A DNA stretch of 64,000 nucleotides. It comes from Haloferax sulfurifontis ATCC BAA-897. Lineage in GTDB: Archaea > Halobacteriota > Halobacteria > Halobacteriales > Haloferacaceae. The position numbers were made by a program, and so were the translations under genes. Below, piece after piece: positions 22,119 through 55,737 of this stretch (within the stretch, counting starts at the first letter, position 1; each line of letters starts with the position of its first letter). The notes under the pieces are model-generated. The model had not been told where the DNA came from. It ran no database searches and saw only the letters and a program-made list of their open reading frames with translations. The stretch is taken from NCBI RefSeq assembly GCF_000337835.1, contig NZ_AOLM01000027.1, positions 1-64,000 on the forward strand. The letters are read 5' to 3'.

Positions 22119-22134
22119 TTTAGGCGAGCCTAAT
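22119..22134. promoter_or_regulatory. DtxR/IdeR-like iron operator over the transcription start
   Basis: TTTAGGCGAGCCTAAT is a near-perfect palindrome matching the DtxR/IdeR/MntR consensus (TTAGGTnAGCCTAA). It falls between the TATA element CTATAT (22110-22115) and ATG 22139, where a metal-loaded repressor would block a leaderless transcript. Confidence 0.8.
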
Positions 22135-22138
22135 CCGT

Positions 22139-23380
22139 ATGTTGGACGACGACGGCGAGAACGCGAGGCCGACCCGGAGAGACTACCTGACGTACGGTGG
22201 GGCGCTTCTCGGCGGCGGGGTGCTCGCGGGATGCGCCGGCCAGTCGGGCGACGACGCGACGGCGACGACGACCGCGGCCGACGCGGCGACCGAAACCGAG
22301 ACAGGGGCCACCGAGACGGCGGCCGAGACAGCTGAATCGAGCTACGCGGCCGAGCTGTCGCCGGTCGGGACGGTCACGCTGGACGAGCCGCCGACGAACG
22401 TGTTCACCCACTTCCCGTGGTTCCCGGACATGGCGAGCGCGCTCGGGCGGGGCGACACCGTCAACGACCTCTGGTGGGACGGCACCGTCGCGGGCCTCGA
22501 CTACTTCACTGCCGACTTCGACGGCTTCGAAATCGAGTGGGCGGACGCGGCGGGCGAGTACGGCTTCACGAAAGAGCGGCTGTACGAACTCGACAGCGAC
22601 CTCCACCTCGTCGACCCCGCGTGGGTGTCCACGCAGGACAACTGGAGCCGAGCCGACATCGACGAGGTCGCGGACAACGTCGGCCCGTGGTTCGGCAACT
22701 ACTACAGCAACTTCAACGCCGCGCCCCCGGGGGAGTGGGCCGACGGCTACGAGTACTGCGACCTCTGGGAGCTGTTCGACCGCGTCGCGTCGCTGTACGG
22801 CGAGCGCGACCGCTACGAGGCGCTCCAGTCCGTCCACGACGACCTGCTCGGCACCGTCGAGGGCGGACTGCCACCGGAGTCCGAGCGTCCAACCGCCGCG
22901 TACCTCTCCATCTCGACGGACCTGTCGAGCATCTACCTGCTCCGCCTGAACGCGCCCGGCTACTGGAACTCTCACACCCGGCCGCTCGGCGCGGTCGACG
23001 CCTTCGGCGACGCGGAGTTCACGGGACCGTTCCAAGAGGTCGATATGGAGGCGCTGTTAGAGGCCGACCCCGACGTGATTCTCGCGTTATGGACCGTCAC
23101 GGAGACGTTCGACTTCGACGGGCTGAAACAGAACCTCCGAGACGACCCCGTCGGCCGCGAACTGGCGGCCGTCCAGAACGACCGCGTCTACCCGCAGGGG
23201 ACGCGGTGGCAGGGGCCGCTGATGAACCTGTTCCAACTGGAGATGACGGCCAAACAGCTCTATCCCGAGCGGTTCGGCGCGTGGCCGACCTACGAGGACG
23301 GCGACGACTACCCCGACTTCGGGACCGACGAGCGGTTGTTCGACCACGAGCGGGTCGAGGAGATCGTCACAGACGGCTAG
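22139..23380 (+). CDS. Iron(III)/siderophore-type ABC substrate-binding lipoprotein
   Basis: A 413-residue extracytoplasmic protein. It has an N-terminal RRDYLTYGG Tat-like motif, a hydrophobic core and a lipobox VLAGCAGQ, then a Thr/Ala-rich linker. The TroA/BtuF-like body shows TVTLDEPPTNVFTHFPWFPDMASALGRG, the second lobe with DPDVILALWTV and the terminal AKQLYPERF motif, consistent with periplasmic ferric-chelate or haem receptors. DtxR-like operators at its start support an iron role. No permease or ATPase is adjacent, so it may serve a transporter encoded elsewhere. Confidence 0.85.
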   Translation: MLDDDGENARPTRRDYLTYGGALLGGGVLAGCAGQSGDDATATTTAADAATETETGATETAAETAESSYAAELSPVGTVTLDEPPTNVFTHFPWFPDMASALGRGDTVNDLWWDGTVAGLDYFTADFDGFEIEWADAAGEYGFTKERLYELDSDLHLVDPAWVSTQDNWSRADIDEVADNVGPWFGNYYSNFNAAPPGEWADGYEYCDLWELFDRVASLYGERDRYEALQSVHDDLLGTVEGGLPPESERPTAAYLSISTDLSSIYLLRLNAPGYWNSHTRPLGAVDAFGDAEFTGPFQEVDMEALLEADPDVILALWTVTETFDFDGLKQNLRDDPVGRELAAVQNDRVYPQGTRWQGPLMNLFQLEMTAKQLYPERFGAWPTYEDGDDYPDFGTDERLFDHERVEEIVTDG

Positions 23381-29535: not shown

Positions 29536-30678
29536 TCAGCCTCTCAACGCGTCGACCGGCCGGTCGTTCGCCGCTTTCCACGCGGGGTAGACCCCGCTGA
29601 GGATGCTCGCGACGACGGCGAAGCCGAACCCGTACACCAGATACTGGAAACCGCTCCACTGCAACGCCCCGAGCGGGTCTCCTGTAATCATCTGGAAGAT
29701 GACGAGCCCCGCCGCAAGCGAGAGGAGCACGCCGATGAGCCCTCCGAGCGCGCCCATCAGGGCGGCCTCCGTCAGAATCATCCGAAGCACTTCGGAACGC
29801 CGAATCCCGACCGCACGGAGGACGCCGATTTCGCCGCGGCGTTCGACCGTGCTCATCAGCATCACGTTGAGGATGGCGACGCTCGCGACGACGAGCGAGA
29901 TGCCGCCGATTGCCAGCAGGGCGAGCGAAAGCGTCTCCAAGAACCCGCCGACTTGGCCGGCGTTGCCGAACGTGTTGATGCTGAGTTCCTCTTCGTCGTC
30001 GGTGTTGAAGTACTCGTCTAACTCCCCGCCGATTTCGGTCGCGGTCGAGCTATCCGCGGCGACAATCGTCACGACGTCGTAGTGGTTCTGGTCGGAGAGG
30101 GCGGACTCGGGCAACACGAGTTCGCCGCCGCCGAAGCCGAACGCGTTTTCTTCCTCGATTAAGCCCTGTACGCGGTACAGTTGGCCGTCGTACTCGACGG
30201 GGTCTCCCTCCTCGATGCCGAGGGTGGTCGCGGTGCTGTTGCTGAGGAGTGCGCCGCTCAACAGCCGGGTGGGCGCTTCACCCGAGGTGAGGTTGTACAG
30301 CGCCGCCGCGTTCGTCACCCCGGTGACGCTCACCCGCACCTCCCGTCCGTTTCGCGACGAGACCGTCGTCGAGTTCGTCTTCTGGGGGACCACCTCCGCG
30401 TCGGTCACCAGATTTCGCATCGTATCGACCTGGTCGTCGGTCACCCCGTCCGTGTCGCTGTCCTGACCGGACGTTATCGACACCTCGTTGCCGATGCTTC
30501 CCAGTTGCGACGTCGCTTGTTGCTGGATTGCGGCCGTCGCCATCCCGAGCGAGCAGATGGAGACCACGCCGATGATGATGCCGAGCGCGGCTAACACCGT
30601 CCGCAGTTTGTTCCGGCCGAGGTTCCGCCACGCCATCTGGACGCTGGGGAACCGCCAGAGGAAATCGACGACGCTCAT
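29536..30678 (-). CDS. MacB/FtsX-type ABC transporter permease
   Basis: A 380-residue membrane protein. Helix 1 follows [26 protein letters not shown], the classic MacB/LolC N-terminus. A large extracytoplasmic MacB_PCD domain spans about residues 50-240. Three C-terminal helices carry the FtsX domain ([25 protein letters not shown] and [19 protein letters not shown]). ATG 30678 overlaps the stop of the ATPase (ATGA), so they are co-translated. Such exporters act by mechanotransmission on extracytoplasmic substrates, not by classic transport. No MacA/HlyD adaptor is present; a CARDB-type anchored protein takes that genomic place. Confidence 0.92.
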
Positions 30679-31352
30679 CGTCCGGAGACCTCCGTGATGA
30701 CGCCGTCGACGAGTCGGACGGTGCTGTCGGTGTACTCCAGCATCTGTTCGTCGTGGGTGACCGCGACAATCGCGACGTTCTCGTCCTCTTTTAACCGAGT
30801 CAGCTCGCTCAGAATCGTCTCTCCGGTGGCTTGGTCGAGGTTCCCCGTCGGCTCGTCGGCGAGGAGAATGTCCGGCTCGTTGATCAGCGCCCGCGCGATG
30901 GCGACGCGCTGTCGCTGGCCGCCCGACAGCTGATCGGGTGTGTGGTCGAGTCGGTCGCCGAGCCCCACTCGCTGTAGGAGGTCCTGCGCGCGGTCGTGCC
31001 GGTCGACCGAGGTGTCCCACATCGAGGGAAGCTCGACGTTTTCGGTCGCGGTCAGCATCGGCAACAGGTGGAAGTCCTGAAACACGAACCCGATACCCGA
31101 CCGACGCTCTTCGGTCAGCTCGTCCTCGGTGAAGTCGGTCACGTTGCGACCGTCGAGGTGGACCGTCCCCTCTGTCGGCGTGTCGAGCAACCCGATCATG
31201 TTCAGCATGGTACTCTTCCCGGAGCCCGACGGGCCGATGATCGTCACCATCTCACCGCGGTCGGCTTGGAAGTCGACGTGGTCGAGCGCGGCGATGACCT
31301 CCTCGCCGTTCTGGTAGCGTTTCACGACGTCAGTGAGTTCGATGACACTCAT
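30675..31352 (-). CDS. MacB/LolD-type ABC ATPase
   Basis: A 225-residue ATPase. Walker [11 protein letters not shown]-loop [20 protein letters not shown], signature [15 protein letters not shown], Walker [13 protein letters not shown] and H-loop VTHDEQ are all present, with the size and motif spacing of LolD/MacB-like domains. ATG 31352 begins one base after the stop of the upstream CARDB protein gene and its own stop overlaps the permease start, giving a three-gene operon. Confidence 0.94.
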
Positions 31353-31353
31353 G

Positions 31354-32547
31354 CTAGTGGTGGCGCCAGCGATAGATGCCAACTCCGCCGAGTACGACGA
31401 CCACCAGCACGCCCCCGATAACGGGCAACGAAAGCGGGAGACCACCCGACGACCCGCCCGAACCCTGACCCCGATTGGACTGGGGACCGCCGGCGGCGGG
31501 CGTGGCGCCGGCGCCGCTCGAATCGATCGGCACCTCCTGTGTCGTCGTCACGCGGTCGCCGTCCACGATGTAGGACACCTCGATGGGGACGGTGGTCGGC
31601 TCGCCGCTGAGCTGTGCGGTCAGGTCGAACGTGGCGAACTCGCTCCCCTCTACGCGCCCGACGAAGTAGCCGCCGGACGGCGAGCCGTGGGACACGTTTT
31701 CCGTCTCCTTGACAGTCAGCAAGACCGAGCTCGCGTCCGTGTTCCCGACGTTCGCGGCGTCGCCCTGTATCGTCACGGAGCCGGTGGTTCGCGTGGTCTC
31801 GATGCTCGTCAGTCGAATCTCGCCGGGGACCGACTCGTCGTCTATCTCCTTCGACAGCGAGGTCGTGTACGTCTCTCCGTCGACGGTGTACGTCGCGGTG
31901 AACAGCACGACCTGGTCGCTCATATCGTCGGTGTCGAACACGACAGAGCGGTTCGTGTCCGGGCCGAGGTTCGCAGTGTACCGCTGGGCGACCTGAGAGT
32001 CGTTTACCGACGCGGTGATTTCGACGTTCGAGAGGTTCGTGTTCCCGTAGTTGGTCAACTCCACGTTGACGGTGTCGTTCGTCTGCTCGGTCACGGAGAG
32101 CCCGGCTCGCACGTCCCGTTCTTCGACCTCCACGATGACCGGGTACTCGACGTTGATGACGTTCCCGTTTTCGTGGCGGCCGGAGACGTGGACTCTGAGC
32201 TGTTTCTCTCCGGCGCTCGTGAACGTGGTCGACAGCGGCACGTCGACGGAGCCACCCGGCCCGAGCGTTCCGAGGTTGTTCGCTTCGGCGACGATGCGAC
32301 CGCCCGAACGGAGCGTGACCTCTTTGAGGTCCACGCCGCCGGAACTGCTCTCGAAGTTCGAGACGGTCGCGCGAACCGTGACCGACTCGCCGACGTACGG
32401 CTCACTCGGTTCGACTGTCGTCGAGTTGACCACGATTTGCCCCGACTGGGCGCTCACTGCCGAGGGACCGCCGACGAGGATGCTCGTGACGGCCAACAGC
32501 GCGACTGCCCCCGCGACAGCGGGCCGAACACCACGACTCCGCGTCAT
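31354..32547 (-). CDS. CARDB-domain surface protein linked to the MacB-like exporter
   Basis: A 397-residue secreted, membrane-anchored protein. A signal peptide is at residues 1-33 (hydrophobic, ending PSAVSAQ). Repeated beta-sandwich CARDB/COG1361-like domains follow, with VGESVTVRATVSNF, TLGPGGSVDVPLS, VNVELTNYGNTNLSNVEI and VTIQGDAANVGNTDASSV, then a Gly/Ser-rich linker near residue 365 and one C-terminal helix before RWRHH. The fold is outside the cell and the anchor is at the membrane. I infer that it acts as the extracytoplasmic partner of the ABC exporter, as it is one base from the ATPase gene. ATG 32547 is preferred over 32727 because it gives a normal signal peptide. Confidence 0.82.
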   Translation of the reverse strand: MTRSRGVRPAVAGAVALLAVTSILVGGPSAVSAQSGQIVVNSTTVEPSEPYVGESVTVRATVSNFESSSGGVDLKEVTLRSGGRIVAEANNLGTLGPGGSVDVPLSTTFTSAGEKQLRVHVSGRHENGNVINVEYPVIVEVEERDVRAGLSVTEQTNDTVNVELTNYGNTNLSNVEITASVNDSQVAQRYTANLGPDTNRSVVFDTDDMSDQVVLFTATYTVDGETYTTSLSKEIDDESVPGEIRLTSIETTRTTGSVTIQGDAANVGNTDASSVLLTVKETENVSHGSPSGGYFVGRVEGSEFATFDLTAQLSGEPTTVPIEVSYIVDGDRVTTTQEVPIDSSGAGATPAAGGPQSNRGQGSGGSSGGLPLSLPVIGGVLVVVVLGGVGIYRWRHH

Positions 32548-36254: not shown

Positions 36255-37877
36255 ATGGTACGGAACAAATCAGCGATACTCCTTTGTGTGCTAGTAGTAA
36301 CGTCAATCGCGGCAGTTCCCGTGTCGGCCGAGAGTTCAGTGTACGGCAATCCGGAGCTCTCGCTGAGCGTGTCGGACAACACCTACCGGTCGAGTGAGTC
36401 CGCGACGCTGTCGATTGTCGCAAGTAACAACGGACGGCTCGAACAGGGTGGGCCAGCGCAGTACGAACAGGAGGTTCAGACCGCACAGAGCGTCCAGATG
36501 GAGGTTCTCGAAGACCAGATCGACGCGCCGATCGACGTGAAAACGGGGACCGTGACGGCGGGCGCAATCCCGGATTCGGGAACCGCTCGATTCGATTTCA
36601 ACGTCGAAATCGGTGCCGCCGAGCCGGGGACCTACGAGATTCCCGTCGAAGTACAGTACAAGTACGTCCGGATGGTCACGTACGGCGACGTCGATGGCCC
36701 GGAATACGTGTGGCGGACGGTCACGAAAAAGAAGTCGGTGACGGTCGAGGTCGAAGACCGTCCGCAGTTCGAGGTCGTGAACGACGAGAATAACGCGGTG
36801 TTCGCCGGTGACACCGGCCGGCTCTCGTTCACGCTCGAAAACACGGGGACGCGAACCGCCACGTCGTCTTCGGTCCAGGTCACGACGCAGTCGCCGACGG
36901 TTTTCTTCGGAACGACGCAGAACCCGCAGTCGTCGACGAGCCTGTACGTTCCGTCGCTTCAGCCGGGTGAGCGGACGAACCTCTCTGTCCAAGTCGGTGC
37001 GGCGGCAGAAACCCAAGCCGGGTCGTACCCCATCGACCTCGCCGTGTCGTACGAGAACCAAAACGGTGTTACCGAGACCTCGGATACGCTGACGACCGGA
37101 GTCACGGTCAAACCCGAGCGGACGTTCGAGATCAGAGACATCGAAACGAAACGCTTCAGAGTCGACGAAGGCGAGGCGAAGATCGACGCACAGGTCGTGA
37201 ACACGGGCAGTGGGTCCGTGAGCAACGTCGCCGTCCGTATCGGCAACACGGCGGTTGTGACGCCGACGAACGGCGAGTCCGCGATCGGTGACCTCGAACC
37301 GGGCGAGTCCCAACCGGTCTCCTTTACCGTCTCGATTCCGGCGAGCGCCGAGCCGGGGACGAACACGTTCCCGTTCATCGTCGAATACGAGAACCAAGAC
37401 GGCGACGTGAGGACGTCCTCACCGATTCGCAAGTCGATATCGATCGGAGCGGAACAGGACCCGTTTTCGGTCGTGAACGTCAACACGAGCGTCTCGCCGG
37501 GGACGACGAAGACAGTGGACGTCGAGGTCCAGTACAACGGTGAAGAGCCGGTCTCGGCGGCCAACGCCAAGCTCTTCGTGAGCGACCCGATTTCGACGTC
37601 CGACGACGGCGCGTATCTCGGCGAGATGCAACCGGGAGAAACGAAGACGGCGACGTTCACCGTCAGCGCCGCCTCGGGAGCGATCGTCAAAGCCTACGAC
37701 GCCTCGGTCGAGGTCCGGTACGACGAGGCCGACGGCGACACGAAATACACTGACGGACTGCCGGTCGGCATCGCCCTGTCCCCGTCGAGCGGCGGACTCC
37801 CGATTCCGATGTCGGTCATCGGGGTCCTCGCACTACTCGGAATCGGCGCGATAGCCGTCGTCTACCGCCGCCGATGA
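36255..37877 (+). CDS. COG1361-type surface protein, partner of an RND permease (copy 1)
   Basis: A 540-residue secreted protein with a signal peptide (residues 1-24, ending PVSAE), a beta-rich exterior of repeated CARDB/NEW3-like domains and one C-terminal helix anchoring it (PMSVIGVLALLGIGAIAVVYRRR). Repeats include GDTGRLSFTLENTGTRTATS, LEPGESQPVSFTVSIP and MQPGETKTATFTV. It is a close paralog of the protein at 48236-49870 (shared VYGNPELSLSV/VYGSPDIDVF start, EVSYxYxR segment and similar repeat spacing). Its stop is 29 bases from the RND gene, and the same pairing occurs at the second locus, so the two very likely act together. Confidence 0.88.
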   Translation: MVRNKSAILLCVLVVTSIAAVPVSAESSVYGNPELSLSVSDNTYRSSESATLSIVASNNGRLEQGGPAQYEQEVQTAQSVQMEVLEDQIDAPIDVKTGTVTAGAIPDSGTARFDFNVEIGAAEPGTYEIPVEVQYKYVRMVTYGDVDGPEYVWRTVTKKKSVTVEVEDRPQFEVVNDENNAVFAGDTGRLSFTLENTGTRTATSSSVQVTTQSPTVFFGTTQNPQSSTSLYVPSLQPGERTNLSVQVGAAAETQAGSYPIDLAVSYENQNGVTETSDTLTTGVTVKPERTFEIRDIETKRFRVDEGEAKIDAQVVNTGSGSVSNVAVRIGNTAVVTPTNGESAIGDLEPGESQPVSFTVSIPASAEPGTNTFPFIVEYENQDGDVRTSSPIRKSISIGAEQDPFSVVNVNTSVSPGTTKTVDVEVQYNGEEPVSAANAKLFVSDPISTSDDGAYLGEMQPGETKTATFTVSAASGAIVKAYDASVEVRYDEADGDTKYTDGLPVGIALSPSSGGLPIPMSVIGVLALLGIGAIAVVYRRR

Positions 37878-48235: not shown

Positions 48236-49870
48236 ATGTACAGGGACACAGTTCGTTCTACGCTACTCGCTCTCTGTCTCGTCTCCCTGCTGACTACCTC
48301 GATGGTCGCTCCAGTCGTCGCCCAGACCGCGAGTTCGGGGCAAGTGTACGGGTCGCCCGATATCGACGTCTTCACCTCGACGAGTGAGTTCGAGCCCGGA
48401 ACGCAGTCGGAGCTCAGGCTCACACTCCGAAACAACGGCCAGATCGACCAATCGGGTCCGGAGCGCTACGAGAGCCGCGTGACGACCGCCCGCGGCGTCA
48501 CGGTCGAAGCGATGTCTGGAAGCGCGCCAATCGAGATTAACACCGGCACTATCGGGGCCGGAAACGTCCCGACGGGCACTGTCGACCTTGCGCCGATCGA
48601 TATCACGGTCTCCGAGAATGCGACCCCCGGAACGTATCGGATTCCGATCGAGGTGTCGTACACGTACACCCGACTCGTCGATTACGACCCGTCGGGTGCC
48701 GAGTACACGGACAACACGCGAACGAGAACCCACTACGTGACGGTTCGCGTCCGCGATCAGCCACGGTTCGAAGTCGTCGAGACGTCGTCGACCGCGCAGG
48801 TCGGGAACACTGGCGACCTCTCCGTGACGATCGAAAACACCGGCACCCGCGCCGCGACCGAAGCGAGCGTCACGGCGACCTCGCGGAGCGACGAACTCGT
48901 GTTCGGGACGGCCTCGGCGAGTTCGACCGCGCAGGTCGGCCGCTGGGCCGTCGGTGAGCGTCGGACGGTCAATTACACCGTTTCGCTCGCCGAAGACGCA
49001 ACGGTTCGCGGCTACACCGTTAATCTCGACGTCGACTACACCGATACGGACGGCATCGCTCGAACGTCGCGAACGATGAACATCGGCGTCACCCCCGCTG
49101 AAGAACAGAGCTTCGCCCTCGAAAACGTCTCTACGAACCTCCGTGTCGGCGCGGACGGAACGGTCTCGGGGACGGTCGTCAACAACGGGCCGAAACGCGT
49201 CGACGACCCCGTGCTCCGGCTCAGGTCGAGCAACCCGAACATCAACGTCGAGACGTCCGAATACGCGCTCCCGGACCTCGAACCGGGCGACAGTGCCACG
49301 TTCGAGTACGAGGTCGGCGTTAGCGACGCCGCGAGCGCGAACGTCCAACAGCTCAACCTCACGGTGGAGTACCGCAACAGCCGTGGGAACATCCGAGTCA
49401 GCGACGGGCTCACGACCAACGCCGAAATCGCGCCGCACCGGGACCGCTTCGTCGTCGAGGTGGTCAACGACACGATCGAAGCAGGCAGTGACACCGCACT
49501 CCGCGTGCGGGTCACCAACAACGGTGAGGAGCCACTCAGAAACATCGAAGCGAAAGCGTTCGTCCGCGATCCCCTCAGTAGTGACAACGACGAGGGCATC
49601 ATCGGCGAACTCCAACCGGGCGAATCCGAAGAGTTCACCATTGCGCTGAGCGCCGGGGCCGGCGCGTTGCCGAAGCGCTATCCAGTCTCCTTCGACTTCC
49701 AGTACGAGATGCCGGACGGAGACACGGAAGTGTCGCAAACGTACACCGTGCCCATCGAAGTAATCGAGTCACAGGGCGGCGGCCTCCCGATCGGGCTGAT
49801 CGTCGGCGCGGTCGTCGTTATCGGCGTGCTCGGTGTGTTCGGCTGGCGGCGCTTCAACACGGACGAGTAA
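48236..49870 (+). CDS. COG1361-type surface protein, partner of an RND permease (copy 2)
   Basis: A 544-residue secreted, membrane-anchored protein with a signal peptide ending near VAPVVAQTAS. Repeated CARDB/NEW3-like beta-sandwiches include GNTGDLSVTIENTGTRAATEASV, LEPGDSATFEYEVGVSD and LQPGESEEFTIALS. One C-terminal helix (IGLIVGAVVVIGVLGVFGW) precedes the basic tail. It is a clear paralog of the protein at 36255-37877. The stop is three bases before the RND start, so the two are co-translated. The likely site of action is the face of the cytoplasmic membrane below the S-layer. Confidence 0.88.
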   Translation: MYRDTVRSTLLALCLVSLLTTSMVAPVVAQTASSGQVYGSPDIDVFTSTSEFEPGTQSELRLTLRNNGQIDQSGPERYESRVTTARGVTVEAMSGSAPIEINTGTIGAGNVPTGTVDLAPIDITVSENATPGTYRIPIEVSYTYTRLVDYDPSGAEYTDNTRTRTHYVTVRVRDQPRFEVVETSSTAQVGNTGDLSVTIENTGTRAATEASVTATSRSDELVFGTASASSTAQVGRWAVGERRTVNYTVSLAEDATVRGYTVNLDVDYTDTDGIARTSRTMNIGVTPAEEQSFALENVSTNLRVGADGTVSGTVVNNGPKRVDDPVLRLRSSNPNINVETSEYALPDLEPGDSATFEYEVGVSDAASANVQQLNLTVEYRNSRGNIRVSDGLTTNAEIAPHRDRFVVEVVNDTIEAGSDTALRVRVTNNGEEPLRNIEAKAFVRDPLSSDNDEGIIGELQPGESEEFTIALSAGAGALPKRYPVSFDFQYEMPDGDTEVSQTYTVPIEVIESQGGGLPIGLIVGAVVVIGVLGVFGWRRFNTDE

Positions 49871-49873
49871 CTA

Positions 49874-52402
49874 ATGGACTTCCAGATCGATTACCAGCAC
49901 TACATCGACGTTGTCGACGGTTGGATAGTCGACCAGCCGAAGACAGTACTCCTCGCGTTCCTACTGCTTTCGGCGGGGTTTTCCGCCGGGCTCGGACAGT
50001 CTGGAACCTCGTCTGGAACCAGTCAGTTTACTGAAGACGTCCCCGCGTATCAGGCGTTCGAAGAGGTCAACGACAACTTCGAGCGGGTGACGTTCGAAGA
50101 AGACACCGGCACGACACAGCTCATCCAATCGGGGACGAACGTCCTGTCGAAGCCCGAGCTACTTCGGATGCTCAGGGCGCAACAGCGGTTGCAAGCGAAT
50201 CCCGAGCTGTCGGTCGTACAGACGACGAGCGTCGCCCGGGCCGTCGCCAGAGTCATAGACCCATCGGCCACGACGCTCGCTGAAGAGATCGACGCCGTCG
50301 AACAGGCGACGCCGACGGAGATCGACCGCGCAGTCCAAGTCGCCGTCGAACAGAACCCCGCGATTCGGGCGAGTCTGAGCGAGGACTTCAACGTACGTTC
50401 CGCGTCCGCGTCCGCGACGATCGGTATCGTCACTCACTCGCTTAGCGGAGAAGTGTCCGACTCGGCGGGGACGGGCGGTGACAGCCCGCTGACGGAGATC
50501 CAACGTCACGCCGAGTTCATCGTCGGCTCCGTCGGCGGCGATATCCGGGTCTTCGGGAGCGGAATCCTCTCCGAAGAGTTCAACTCGGTGATCGGCGACT
50601 CCCTCGCGCTCGTCGTTCCCGCGGCGGTCGTTCTGATTCTGTTCTTCTTGGTGTTCGCCTACCGCGACCCGATCGACCTCCTGATCGGGGTCGTCTCCCT
50701 CGCGATGGCCGTCCTCTGGACGTTCGGGTTTATGGGCCTCGCGGGAATCGCGTTCTCGCAGATGCTGATCGCGGTGCCGCCGCTCCTCCTCGCGGTCGGT
50801 ATCGACTTCGGTATCCACGCCATCAACCGCTACCGCGAAGAGCGGACCGAGGGCTTCGGCATCCACGAGTCGATGCGGACGGCGACTGACCAGCTTCTCG
50901 TCGCGTTCACTATCGTGACGGGAACGACCGTAATCGGCTTCGCGGCCAACGCGTCGAGCGACCTCGGACCGATTCGGGACTTCGGTATCGTCGCGGCCGT
51001 CGGCATCGTGTTCACCTTCCTCATCTTCGGCATCTTCCTGCCGGCGGCGAAGGTGTATCTGGACAGCCTCCGAGAGCGGGTTGGCTTCCCCGAATTCGGG
51101 TCCGAGCCACTCGGTGCAGAAGACACGGTCCTCGGGAAGGTCCTCCCCGTCGGGATTCACATCGCTCGTATCGCCCCGAAGGCGTTCCTGGTCATGCTGG
51201 TCGTGAGTACCGCGTGGATGGGGTACTACGGGTCGGGCGTCGATAGTCGCTTCACGCAGGATTCGTTCCTCCCGCCGGAGGACAACCCGGAGTATCTCGA
51301 ACTGTTCCCCCAACAACTGCAACCACGTGACTACACGGTGACGGAGACCACGAACTTCCTGGAGGACAACTTCCAGACGGGTGAAGAAGATGTCACGACG
51401 GTGTACGTGGAGGGCTCGCTCACGGACGGTGGTACCTTAGAGTCCATCTGGCGGGCCGGGAACAGCCCCCCCGACAGCTTCGTCATCGACGACGGCCACG
51501 CGCGGGAGACGAGTATCATCACCGTCATCCAGAGCTACGCGGAGCGGGACCCCGAGTTCGCGGCGCTCGTCGCTCGGAACGACCGCGACGCGAACGGCAT
51601 CCCCGACGACAACCTCAAGCAGATCTACGACGCGCTCCTCGACTCGCCTGCGCGCGGTCAGGCGCTCAACTACATCACCGACGATTACACCTCCGCGCGC
51701 GTCGAGTACGCGGTCGAATCCGACGCCAGTCAGGCCGACGTGACCGAAGACACGCGCGCGGTCGCGGACCGCTACCGCGTCGAGGCGACGGCCACCGGCA
51801 ACGTCGTCATTCTGAAGGCCGTCTCGGACGTCATCGCGCAGTCGGCGTTCATCAGCCTCGTGCTCGCGCTCGGCGGCTCCGCGGTCTTCCTCATCATCAT
51901 CTATACCCTGCTCGAAGGCCGGCCCTCGCTCGGCGTCGTGAATCTGATCCCGATCGTCGTGACTGTCGCCGCTATCGCCGCGACGATGCGGTATCTCGAC
52001 ATCCCGTTTAACGTGATGACCGGGACGATCCTGTCTATCGGTATCGGCCTCGGAATCGACTACTCGGCGCACCTCGTCCACCGGTTCGCCGAGGAGTACG
52101 ACGAGGGCACGGACGTCTTCGTCGCTCTGACCGACTCGGTGCGCGGGACCGGTGGCGCGCTCACCGGCAGTATGCTGACGACGGTGACCGGAATCGGCGT
52201 TCTCGTCATCGCGATTACGCCGATTCTCGGCCAGTTCGGACTCCTGACCGGGGTCTCGATTCTGTACTCGTACGTGGCCTCGCTCGTCGTCTTGCCGCCG
52301 GCGCTCGTCGTCTGGGCGCGCCTCGTCCACGGCGAGAACGCGGAGACTGCCGAAGCCGCGAGTGGCCCGGACGGCGCGGGCGGTGCGGGCGGTGCGGCGT
52401 GA
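49874..52402 (+). CDS. HAE3/MMPL-type RND permease (copy 2)
   Basis: An 842-residue two-fold RND protein. Helix-4 motifs are GIDFGIHAINRYREER in the first half and LGIDYSAHLVHRFAEEY in the second. It has two large extracytoplasmic loops; the second contains a segment with FRTQDSFLPPEDNPEY-like character near residue 455-475, where DxSFLPP phrases occur in archaeal RNDs. It is longer than copy 1 and ends in an Ala/Gly-rich tail. It pairs with the preceding COG1361 protein, and a CetZ-like and a TetR gene follow. Confidence 0.92.
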   Translation: MDFQIDYQHYIDVVDGWIVDQPKTVLLAFLLLSAGFSAGLGQSGTSSGTSQFTEDVPAYQAFEEVNDNFERVTFEEDTGTTQLIQSGTNVLSKPELLRMLRAQQRLQANPELSVVQTTSVARAVARVIDPSATTLAEEIDAVEQATPTEIDRAVQVAVEQNPAIRASLSEDFNVRSASASATIGIVTHSLSGEVSDSAGTGGDSPLTEIQRHAEFIVGSVGGDIRVFGSGILSEEFNSVIGDSLALVVPAAVVLILFFLVFAYRDPIDLLIGVVSLAMAVLWTFGFMGLAGIAFSQMLIAVPPLLLAVGIDFGIHAINRYREERTEGFGIHESMRTATDQLLVAFTIVTGTTVIGFAANASSDLGPIRDFGIVAAVGIVFTFLIFGIFLPAAKVYLDSLRERVGFPEFGSEPLGAEDTVLGKVLPVGIHIARIAPKAFLVMLVVSTAWMGYYGSGVDSRFTQDSFLPPEDNPEYLELFPQQLQPRDYTVTETTNFLEDNFQTGEEDVTTVYVEGSLTDGGTLESIWRAGNSPPDSFVIDDGHARETSIITVIQSYAERDPEFAALVARNDRDANGIPDDNLKQIYDALLDSPARGQALNYITDDYTSARVEYAVESDASQADVTEDTRAVADRYRVEATATGNVVILKAVSDVIAQSAFISLVLALGGSAVFLIIIYTLLEGRPSLGVVNLIPIVVTVAAIAATMRYLDIPFNVMTGTILSIGIGLGIDYSAHLVHRFAEEYDEGTDVFVALTDSVRGTGGALTGSMLTTVTGIGVLVIAITPILGQFGLLTGVSILYSYVASLVVLPPALVVWARLVHGENAETAEAASGPDGAGGAGGAA

Positions 52403-52582: not shown

Positions 52583-53683
52583 ATGAACGTGTTCTGCTTC
52601 GGAGCAGGGAAGGCAGGGGGGAACGTCGTCGAGCAACTTCTTCGCTACGAGCGCCAGCGAAAGGCGGATTTCATCGTCGGCGCGGCGGCGTGTGATACGA
52701 CCGCGGCAGACCTCGACGACCTGGCGCTGATTCCCGAGGACGCGCGCGTGCTGTTCGGCACGGCCGAAACCGGGGGACACGGCTTCGACGGCGACGCCGC
52801 CGGTGGCGTCGCGGCCGCCAAGGACGCACACCGACAGCTCCTCGAACCGACCGACAGTGCACCGATTGCGGCGAGCGACGCCTTCGTCGTCTGCGCCGGC
52901 CTCGGTGGCGGGACCGGCGGGCCGACTGCCGCAGTCATCGCCGAACAACTCTCCGAGCTGTACGACCAGCCGGTGTACGGCGTCGCCAGCTTCTCGACGT
53001 CGACAACTGACCCGCAGTGCGCTTCGAACACCCTGCGGTCGCTCCGGCAACTCGTGTCGGCCACGGACCACGTCTTCGGGTTCGACACCGCCTCGTGGGT
53101 CAAAGAGGAGCCGGTATCCGAAGAGCAGTACGACACGCTCGACGCGGAACTCGCGCGCCGCCTCGGCACGCTGTTCGCGGCGGGCGAGGTCACGACCGCC
53201 GACGACGTCGGTGCAAGCGTCGTCGACGCCTCCGAGATCATGAACACGCTCCGCGGCGGTGGGCTCGCGACGCTCGGCTATTCCGAACGCCCGCTCCCGC
53301 CCCGCGACACGAGCGTTCGCGGGCGTCTCAAGCGACTCATCGGCGACGACGCCGAGTCGGTCGACCAGATCGACTCGCTGAACCGAATCACGACGCAGAC
53401 GCGAGAGGCCGTCCGCGGACAGCTGACGCTCCCCTGCGATATCGAGACGGCATCGAGGGGGTTGCTCGTGATTACCGGACGGCCGGCGTGGCTCAACCGC
53501 GACGCGATAAGCCAGAACCAGGGCTGGCTCGAAGACCAGACCGGGAGTCTGGAGGTTCGCAACGGCGACGACCCGCGGCCGGATGCGGACGCCCTCAGCG
53601 TGTTAGTCGTCCTCGGCGGGGTCGCCCCGCCCGAGCGACTGACCGCGCTCCAGGCAGTCGCGGATGCGGACGACCCCAGCTAA
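52583..53683 (+). CDS. CetZ-family tubulin-like GTPase, divergent
   Basis: A 366-residue cytoplasmic protein of the tubulin/FtsZ superfamily. [14 protein letters not shown] at residues 6-19 and the tubulin signature GLGGGTGG at 106-113 bind [15 protein letters not shown] follows the nucleotide fold, and [13 protein letters not shown] is the conserved strand after the T7 loop. In FtsZ and CetZ the T7 loop reads NxDxxD; here it is VVDASEI, so the catalytic pair is partly changed and polymerisation-coupled hydrolysis may differ. CetZ proteins control cell shape and motility in Haloferax. It lies between the RND operon and a TetR gene. Confidence 0.85.
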
Positions 53684-54470: not shown

Positions 54471-55679
54471 TCAGTCGTCTCTGACCCACCGACGACCGGT
54501 GAACAGGAGCGCAGTCACCACGAGACCACCGAAGAAGCCGCTGAGCAGGAACGTCGACGAGTTCGAGGGGTCCACACTGCCGAGGGCTACGGTGAGTCCG
54601 TTAGTTCCCGTCGTCGTCGCCGCCGAGTCGAACTGGACCGACTGCGTCGCCCGGCCGGTCGTCTCGCCGACGTCGTACGTCGCGGCGACCGTCGCGGTGT
54701 CCGACGGCCAGCTATTGACGTCGACGACGACCGTCTCCGAGGTCGCGGCGTCGACCGACTGAAGCGAGGTCGTCGGCAACTCCGACTGGTTCGACGCGCC
54801 CGATATCACGACGTTGTCGATGGGTGCGTTCCCGTGGTTGGTGACGCGATACCGAACGGCGACCGAGTCGTTTTCCTCGAAGGCGGTCGCGTAGACCGAC
54901 ACGTCGTCTCGGAGCGGCTCGACCTGCATGGTGTCGAACGCTTCGACGGTTTCGCCGTCGTTGTAACGGAGCGTCGCCTTGAGTGCAGTCTCGCCCGCCT
55001 CCGACGGTTCGACCGTGAACTCGTAGGTCGTCGAGTTCTCTGCGGCGAGAACCGGCGTGAGTGCGGTCTGGGCCTGCATCTCGCCGGTAACCGAATCGAG
55101 TCGAAGCGACAGGTCCGTCAGCGCCGCGTCGTCACCGTTCGACACCGTGACGGTGACGGTGGTGTCGGCATCGGCGACCGCGTTGTGAGTCTCGATTTGG
55201 ACCCGCGGCGGAACCGTCGTCGACGTGCTCGGCTCCGAGACCGTGACGAACACCGGATGCTTGAGGTGGACGATCTCCGACGTCGCACCGTCGGAGTCGT
55301 AGTAGCGGCCGCGGACGTGTACGGTCAGTCGCTTGTCGCCGGCGGTGTCGAAGCGCGCACTGACTGGCACTTCGGCGGTATCACCAGCACCGAGCACACC
55401 GATCTGGTTCGCCTCGCTGTGTTTCGTTCCGGAGCGGTCCACGACCGTTACCTCCGTGACTTCGAAACTGCCGCTTCCCGAGCTGGAATGACTAATTGTC
55501 GGAGTGATTATAATACGGTCGCCGGTTTCCGGGTCGTCGTCGGACACGCTCACCCCGGTTACCGCCGTGTGCGCGGGCGACGACGCCGCACCACCCACGG
55601 CGCTTCCAACCGTGAGTAAACAGACAACCATTACTAATCCAACTAATGCACCGCGTTTCGGGCCGAATTTCGATGTCAT
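54471..55679 (-). CDS. CARDB-domain surface protein under iron-type control (paralog of the ABC-linked protein)
   Basis: A 402-residue secreted protein with a signal peptide at residues 1-32 and CARDB-like repeats (GDTAEVPVSARFDTAGDKRLTV, VTVTVSNGDDAALTDLSL, VAVRYRVTNHGNAPIDNV). One C-terminal helix anchors it (FLLSGFFGGLVVTALLF). FDTAGDKRLTVHVRGRY and HPVFVTVSE align with FTSAGEKQLRVHVSGRH and YPVIVEVEE of the MacB-linked protein at 31354-32547. No transporter is beside it. Two DtxR-like operators overlap its leaderless promoter, so expression should rise in iron (or manganese) limitation; a role in metal-chelate capture is inference. Confidence 0.82.
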   Translation of the reverse strand: MTSKFGPKRGALVGLVMVVCLLTVGSAVGGAASSPAHTAVTGVSVSDDDPETGDRIIITPTISHSSSGSGSFEVTEVTVVDRSGTKHSEANQIGVLGAGDTAEVPVSARFDTAGDKRLTVHVRGRYYDSDGATSEIVHLKHPVFVTVSEPSTSTTVPPRVQIETHNAVADADTTVTVTVSNGDDAALTDLSLRLDSVTGEMQAQTALTPVLAAENSTTYEFTVEPSEAGETALKATLRYNDGETVEAFDTMQVEPLRDDVSVYATAFEENDSVAVRYRVTNHGNAPIDNVVISGASNQSELPTTSLQSVDAATSETVVVDVNSWPSDTATVAATYDVGETTGRATQSVQFDSAATTTGTNGLTVALGSVDPSNSSTFLLSGFFGGLVVTALLFTGRRWVRDD

Positions 55680-55685
55680 GCAATC

Positions 55686-55701
55686 TTTAGGCTTGCCTAA
55701 A
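55686..55701. promoter_or_regulatory. DtxR/IdeR-like operator over the promoter of the CARDB gene (site A)
   Basis: TTTAGGCTTGCCTAAA is a perfect palindrome with the DtxR-type half-site TTAGGC. It sits between the TATA element (ATTTTTATTTATTT, minus, 55712-55699) and the leaderless ATG at 55679, exactly like the site at 22119-22134. Confidence 0.82.
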
Positions 55702-55721: not shown

Positions 55722-55737
55722 TTTAGGTCAGCCTAAT
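55722..55737. promoter_or_regulatory. DtxR/IdeR-like operator of the CARDB gene (site B)
   Basis: TTTAGGTCAGCCTAAT is close to the DtxR consensus TTAGGTTAGCCTAA. It lies upstream of the TATA box, so sites A and B flank the core promoter. Confidence 0.78.

Follow-up and report, generated by a model that had tools for sequence, protein, structure and literature searches.

A gene for a CARDB-type surface protein stands alone at 54471-55679 in a stretch of 64,000 nucleotides from Haloferax sulfurifontis ATCC BAA-897 (contig NZ_AOLM01000027.1, positions 1 to 64,000; hereafter the window), and a similar protein is encoded at 31354-32547 within a MacB-type ABC operon. This raises the question of what such a protein does outside the operon, behind what look like binding sites for a metal-dependent repressor. 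An earlier note on this DNA had taken the two proteins for paralogs and had suggested that, under iron scarcity, the solo copy may give the MacB-like exporter a new target by acting as its alternative subunit, or may be a receptor. CARDB proteins in the window are not limited to this pair: two more of the CARDB/COG1361 kind (36339-37877 and 48302-49870) are each paired with an RND/MMPL permease. The features on which the analysis rests are collected in Table 1.

Table 1. Features of the solo CARDB gene, its promoter and the related loci in the window
Feature	Position	Strand	Basis
Solo CARDB surface protein, 402 aa	54471..55679	-	ORF; Pfam; hydropathy; AlphaFold2 model
D1, residues 38-148, domain common to 31354-32547; contains solo-specific His64	55236..55568	-	
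D2, residues 156-254; missing in 31354-32547	54918..55214	-	
D3, residues 260-349	54633..54902	-	
C-terminal transmembrane anchor, residues ~374-395	54495..54560	-	hydropathy
DtxR-type box 1, TTAGGCTTGCCTAA, starts -21 from ATG	55687..55700	.	
DtxR-type box 2, TTAGGTCAGCCTAA, starts -57 from ATG	55723..55736	.	
MacB-linked CARDB paralog, D1-D3-D4 + TM	31354..32547	-	
MacB-type ATPase of the same operon	30675..31352	-	
MacB-type permease of the same operon, MacB_PCD + FtsX	29536..30678	-	
COG1361 protein with its RND/MMPL permease, a pair of the same family as an HVO_A0466/HVO_A0467-type Haloferax pair	48302..52402	+	
Binding lipoprotein of ferri-siderophore type (PF01497), a regulon sibling sharing the promoter layout; boxes at 22120 and, with 1 mismatch, 22084	22139..23380	+	

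The open reading frame of the solo gene, with its ATG at 55679, agrees with the boundaries given in the earlier note and encodes three Ig-like (CARDB) domains between a signal peptide and a C-terminal transmembrane anchor. Pfam finds CARDB (PF07705) in two stretches of the protein (E 2.6e-7), at 31.2 bits against a curated cut-off of 22.7 bits, which places it in the family. The AlphaFold2 model, predicted from a shallow alignment, has three beta-sandwich domains mostly at pLDDT 70-88, with the termini unresolved; with mean pLDDT values of 66.5 and 69.6 for models built from alignments of four sequences only, the three-Ig fold is predicted with modest confidence. Structural searches with VIA-align returned generic Ig folds, such as transglutaminase and complement C3, with no MacB- or iron-related structure among the PDB matches listed. 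Since CARDB and Ig folds are generic, such matches say only that the protein is Ig-like and do not point to a ligand. Among the residues that set the solo proteins apart are two examples: position 64 is His in 15 of 16 of them and Asn in 39/39 MacB-linked proteins, and Asp47, likewise found in 15/16, occupies a position where Pro prevails in the MacB-linked ones. A single metal site built from solo-specific Asp and His residues was considered and rejected, as D54 sits at one end of a strand in the model and H64 at the other, so that they would form no one obvious site.

Close orthologs of the solo protein occur in a Haloferax denitrificans-type genome labelled as the same species (92% identical) and in H. 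massiliensis (91%). A further fragment, about 75% identical and broken across frames (L077:6866-7189, genome G040), is probably a pseudogene. We found no relatives in viral contigs; those in plasmid records came from Haloarcula only, and the one inspected was MacB-linked. No literature on the solo subfamily was found in a search that missed most subscription papers.

How, then, is the solo protein related to the MacB-linked one? The two share a signal peptide and a C-terminal transmembrane segment, as the earlier note had said, and they are homologous, although by BLASTP only over the N-terminal domain D1 (35% identity over 126 aa, E 8e-18). Full-length homology does not hold for the window pair, since a different domain of a four-domain layout is missing from each: the solo protein is D1-D2-D3 and its counterpart D1-D3-D4. 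Homology over the whole length does hold against the four-domain MacB-linked haloarchaeal proteins, with which the entire solo ectodomain aligns by hhalign (E 8e-55, 328 columns, 34%). The closest relatives outside the solo clade are mostly 470-510 aa long, and their genes immediately precede those of a MacB ATPase and permease. In a tree of 55 proteins the 16 solo sequences (14 genomes) form one group with support of 100/100, apart from 39 MacB-linked proteins; the tree is midpoint-rooted, so it does not itself say which of the two states is ancestral. Two of the solo sequences bore a MacB flag in the tally; it stems from a tandem solo copy that matched the MacB-linked CARDB label, and no MacB gene lies behind it. 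The solo clade spans three haloarchaeal families (the labels f1, f7 and f12 are those of the search tool, and gene starts in other genomes come from a simple gene caller).

Four Ig-like domains make up the profile built from the MacB-linked proteins, 35 of which are D1-D2-D3-D4; the shorter ones are D1-D3-D4 (three, including the window paralog) or D1-D2-D4 (one). By profile coverage D4 is therefore present in 39/39 MacB-linked proteins, even where D2 or D3 is missing, and absent from 16/16 solo proteins, all of which are D1-D2-D3. This membrane-proximal domain carries YFVG..SxFxxFDL, the most conserved stretch in the family, with a mean column identity of 0.74 over a 20-residue block against about 0.45-0.66 elsewhere. 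D4 may thus be the part tied to MacB, a probable docking contact of archaeal MacB partners. Gene order follows the same division: a MacB gene lies downstream of all 39 MacB-linked genes and of neither the window solo gene nor any of its solo relatives. In short, the solo proteins resemble the products of the CARDB-ATPase-MacB operons in their signal peptide, Ig domains, C-terminal anchor and homologous D1-D3, and differ from them in lacking both the downstream ATPase and permease genes and D4, in carrying His64 in place of Asn and in having an iron-type double operator.

The promoter bears on when the solo gene would be used. The DtxR-like sites reported earlier are two exact palindromes of the form TTAGGN4CCTAA, 36 bp apart, with an A/T-rich, TATA-like stretch between them. 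The pattern occurs 24 times in the genome, against once for the reversed control pattern, and there are only four exact doublets, all at 36 bp spacing (control zero). One of these precedes the solo gene. Of the other three, one precedes the gene of a PF01497 binding protein, next to which lies an operon containing IucA/IucC, aminotransferase and decarboxylase genes; the second precedes an import operon of the reductase-FecCD-ABC type, and the third a DUF7260 gene together with a DtxR-family regulator gene. Single boxes lie ahead of more binding proteins and of one SBP-permease-ATPase-type operon. The boxes start at nearly the same distances from the ATG in the solo gene (-57/-21) and in the siderophore-binding-protein genes (-55/-19).

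Across the 16 solo genomes (G000, G353, G002, G094, G161, G230, G226, G235, G175, G162, G206, G240, G244, G216, G146 and G249), the doublet, scored at a spacing of 34-36 bp with no more than a single mismatch allowed, in one of the boxes, is retained in 13, in three families and with orthologs down to about 40% identity. It precedes none of the 39 MacB-linked relatives (Fisher p 4e-10, relatedness ignored). Counter to iron control, no recognisable box lies upstream of the solo gene in G146 or G249, and G216 has a single near-match only. The motif lies over the promoter, is common to iron-acquisition genes and is conserved in orthologs, so that, as judged from sequence, the solo gene very probably belongs to a haloarchaeal iron regulon of the DtxR-family, FerR-type kind; that the metal is iron rather than another is suggested by the content of the regulon. 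FerR and its fhu targets were named by Leyn and Rodionov (2015), as cited in PMC11349517, and the haloarchaeal FerR/DtxR regulon as described through that citation is alike in having boxes before fhu/siderophore-type genes. The company of the solo gene comprises binding proteins, an importer, synthesis genes and a regulator gene.

Other loci with such boxes came to light as well. DUF7260 is followed by a small DtxR-family regulator gene (Pfam) behind a 36-bp doublet at L070:4752-6200 (the same genome, contig C18), and by a second small gene behind the same kind of 36-bp doublet at L060:3256-4973, where the genes were matched by resemblance only. These loci suggest an autoregulated iron repressor with a partner. 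At L064:4138-6603 a box, with a near-box 36 bp off, is followed immediately by DUF5059 and a plastocyanin-like copper protein; this blue-copper protein appears to belong to the iron regulon and might serve as an electron carrier that spares iron.

With these data in hand, the notion that the solo protein replaces the operon's CARDB partner in iron scarcity and so redirects the exporter can be weighed. It draws on the real homology over D1-D3, on the nearness of MacB operons, some 5-24 kb from the solo gene in G000, G175, G146 and G162, and on co-occurrence: in a sample of 392 genomes, 15 of them with a solo gene, island-class MacB is found in 10/15 solo genomes against 42/377 others, relatedness being ignored in this comparison and in the p-values. 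The expected pairing across genomes holds to that extent and breaks down in the other five solo genomes (G094, G161, G230, G226 and G249), which have no island-class CARDB-MacB operon; the first four have a distant MacB only, whose inspected surroundings contain no CARDB gene, and G249 has no MacB. Nor does any MacB-linked CARDB gene examined have a box ahead of it. With D4 missing and the solo gene able to occur independently of MacB, we downgrade this proposal and hold it to be very unlikely. The other half of the earlier suggestion, a receptor for iron-poor conditions, is compatible with the evidence and comes near the reading that we prefer.

The neighbourhood of the gene brings two further candidates into play. 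At about 29-56 kb the window holds the MacB operon, both COG1361+RND pairs, an S-layer-glycoprotein-like gene, a CetZ gene, a TetR gene and the solo gene itself, and parts of this surface island recur around solo genes in f12 genomes, and parts of it in distant haloarchaeal families; the island (29536-56000) also encodes a NosD-like beta-helix protein, and its S-layer-glycoprotein-like gene carries PGF-CTERM. The solo gene nonetheless stands alone in the sense claimed for it, its nearest neighbours being a convergent TetR gene and an unrelated small gene. The CetZ-type tubulin homolog (52583-53683) lies between the RND permease and TetR genes; the RND-CetZ-TetR-solo order is retained in H. denitrificans and H. 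massiliensis, and in another locus (L111) a divergent CetZ gene adjoins the solo gene. One might accordingly see the solo protein as an accessory of an RND/MMPL exporter, possibly a siderophore exporter, acting beside the COG1361-RND pairs. HVO_A0467 rises 44-fold in iron starvation and has been proposed to be the schizokinen exporter (PMC11349517), and RND genes of its family lie about 2-11 kb from the solo gene in seven genomes of three lineages (G000, G353, G002, G094, G161, G226 and G249). MMPL_A RND genes occur in 8/15 solo genomes and are absent from 11 other genomes of the same genus in the sample. G206 and G240 alone have a solo gene immediately ahead of a COG1361+RND pair and on the same strand, at a gap of about 145-150 bp. 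Tandemly duplicated solo genes lie at L113:8070-10575 and L114:8246-10806, where the doublet is kept only by the copy adjoining the COG1361+RND pair; G206 and G240 each have a tandem pair with the doublet before a single copy. The HVO_A0466-type COG1361 proteins (PMC11349517) are themselves anchored outer Ig chains with an iron-starvation link, often encoded close by, although their similarity to the solo protein is distant (hhalign probability 96%, E 1.3e-9, partial).

These same pairs, however, already own an Ig-chain COG1361 partner, and the solo gene differs from those examined in having no RND gene of its own but DtxR-type boxes that they lack: no box precedes either COG1361+RND pair of the window or the HVO_A0466/0467-type pair of H. 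alexandrinus (L123). The window RND gene is 2.1 kb away on the opposite strand, with the CetZ and TetR genes between, so that the adjacent, co-directional RND gene typical of HVO_A0466-type proteins is missing here. Deletion of HVO_A0467 had no reported effect on growth under iron scarcity (PMC11349517). Strict coupling of the solo gene to siderophore synthesis was likewise unconvincing, IucA/IucC being present in 8/15 solo genomes (Fisher p 0.08, relatedness ignored); its absence from the other 7/15 means that the protein need not serve siderophore export, and agrees better with capture than with the export of a self-made siderophore of the IucA/IucC kind. We therefore consider an RND accessory rather unlikely. 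The Ig-repeat architecture with its C-terminal anchor could instead belong to an iron-responsive envelope component that stabilises or spaces the S-layer, and S-layer-glycoprotein-like genes lie near the solo gene in the window, G146, G206, G244 and G216. Against such remodelling, the f7 genomes keep the box doublet, yet no S-layer gene was seen near their solo genes, and the solo operator is one of the four exact iron-regulon doublets; we regard it as quite unlikely.

The best explanation as a whole, to which we give a little less than an even chance, is that the solo protein is a surface accessory induced by iron starvation on the side of iron or ferri-siderophore capture. It draws on the anchor, the homology, the conserved double operator, the regulon company, the absence of D4 and the single clade. 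With ample iron, a metal-loaded repressor would sit on the two boxes bracketing the TATA region and block transcription; when iron becomes scarce, the solo gene would be released together with the siderophore-binding proteins, the FecCD/ABC importer and the siderophore synthesis genes. Its product would be exported and held by one C-terminal helix, its three Ig-like domains extending into the space beneath the S-layer or inside it. Lacking D4, taken here as the MacB-docking domain, it would not work as a MacB subunit, and it would most likely bind an iron source or keep ferri-siderophore binding proteins near the FecCD importer. This specific capture-side role is possible but tentative; we rank it ahead of the RND accessory, the S-layer role and the MacB subunit, in that order. 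Counting against capture, what surrounds the solo gene is often a surface island, with RND pairs, a MacB operon or an S-layer glycoprotein gene close by and not iron importers; such a siting would suit an envelope role as well.

At the level of the family, archaeal MacB partners may be modular, with interchangeable outer Ig domains on a constant D4, one lineage having shed D4 and gained an iron operator to become a free-standing iron-capture or substrate-presenting surface protein. We think this unlikely as it stands; if true, it would describe a new kind of iron-acquisition component. The prediction that D4 is the probable contact with MacB can be separated from the question of the solo protein. 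From its sequence, the solo gene appears to be a conserved and strongly marked member of the iron regulon. At the time of an earlier study (PMC7407949), it was not known which H. volcanii genes serve siderophore export and import, and the solo gene bears on how siderophores and ferric iron pass through the archaeal S-layer and pseudoperiplasm.
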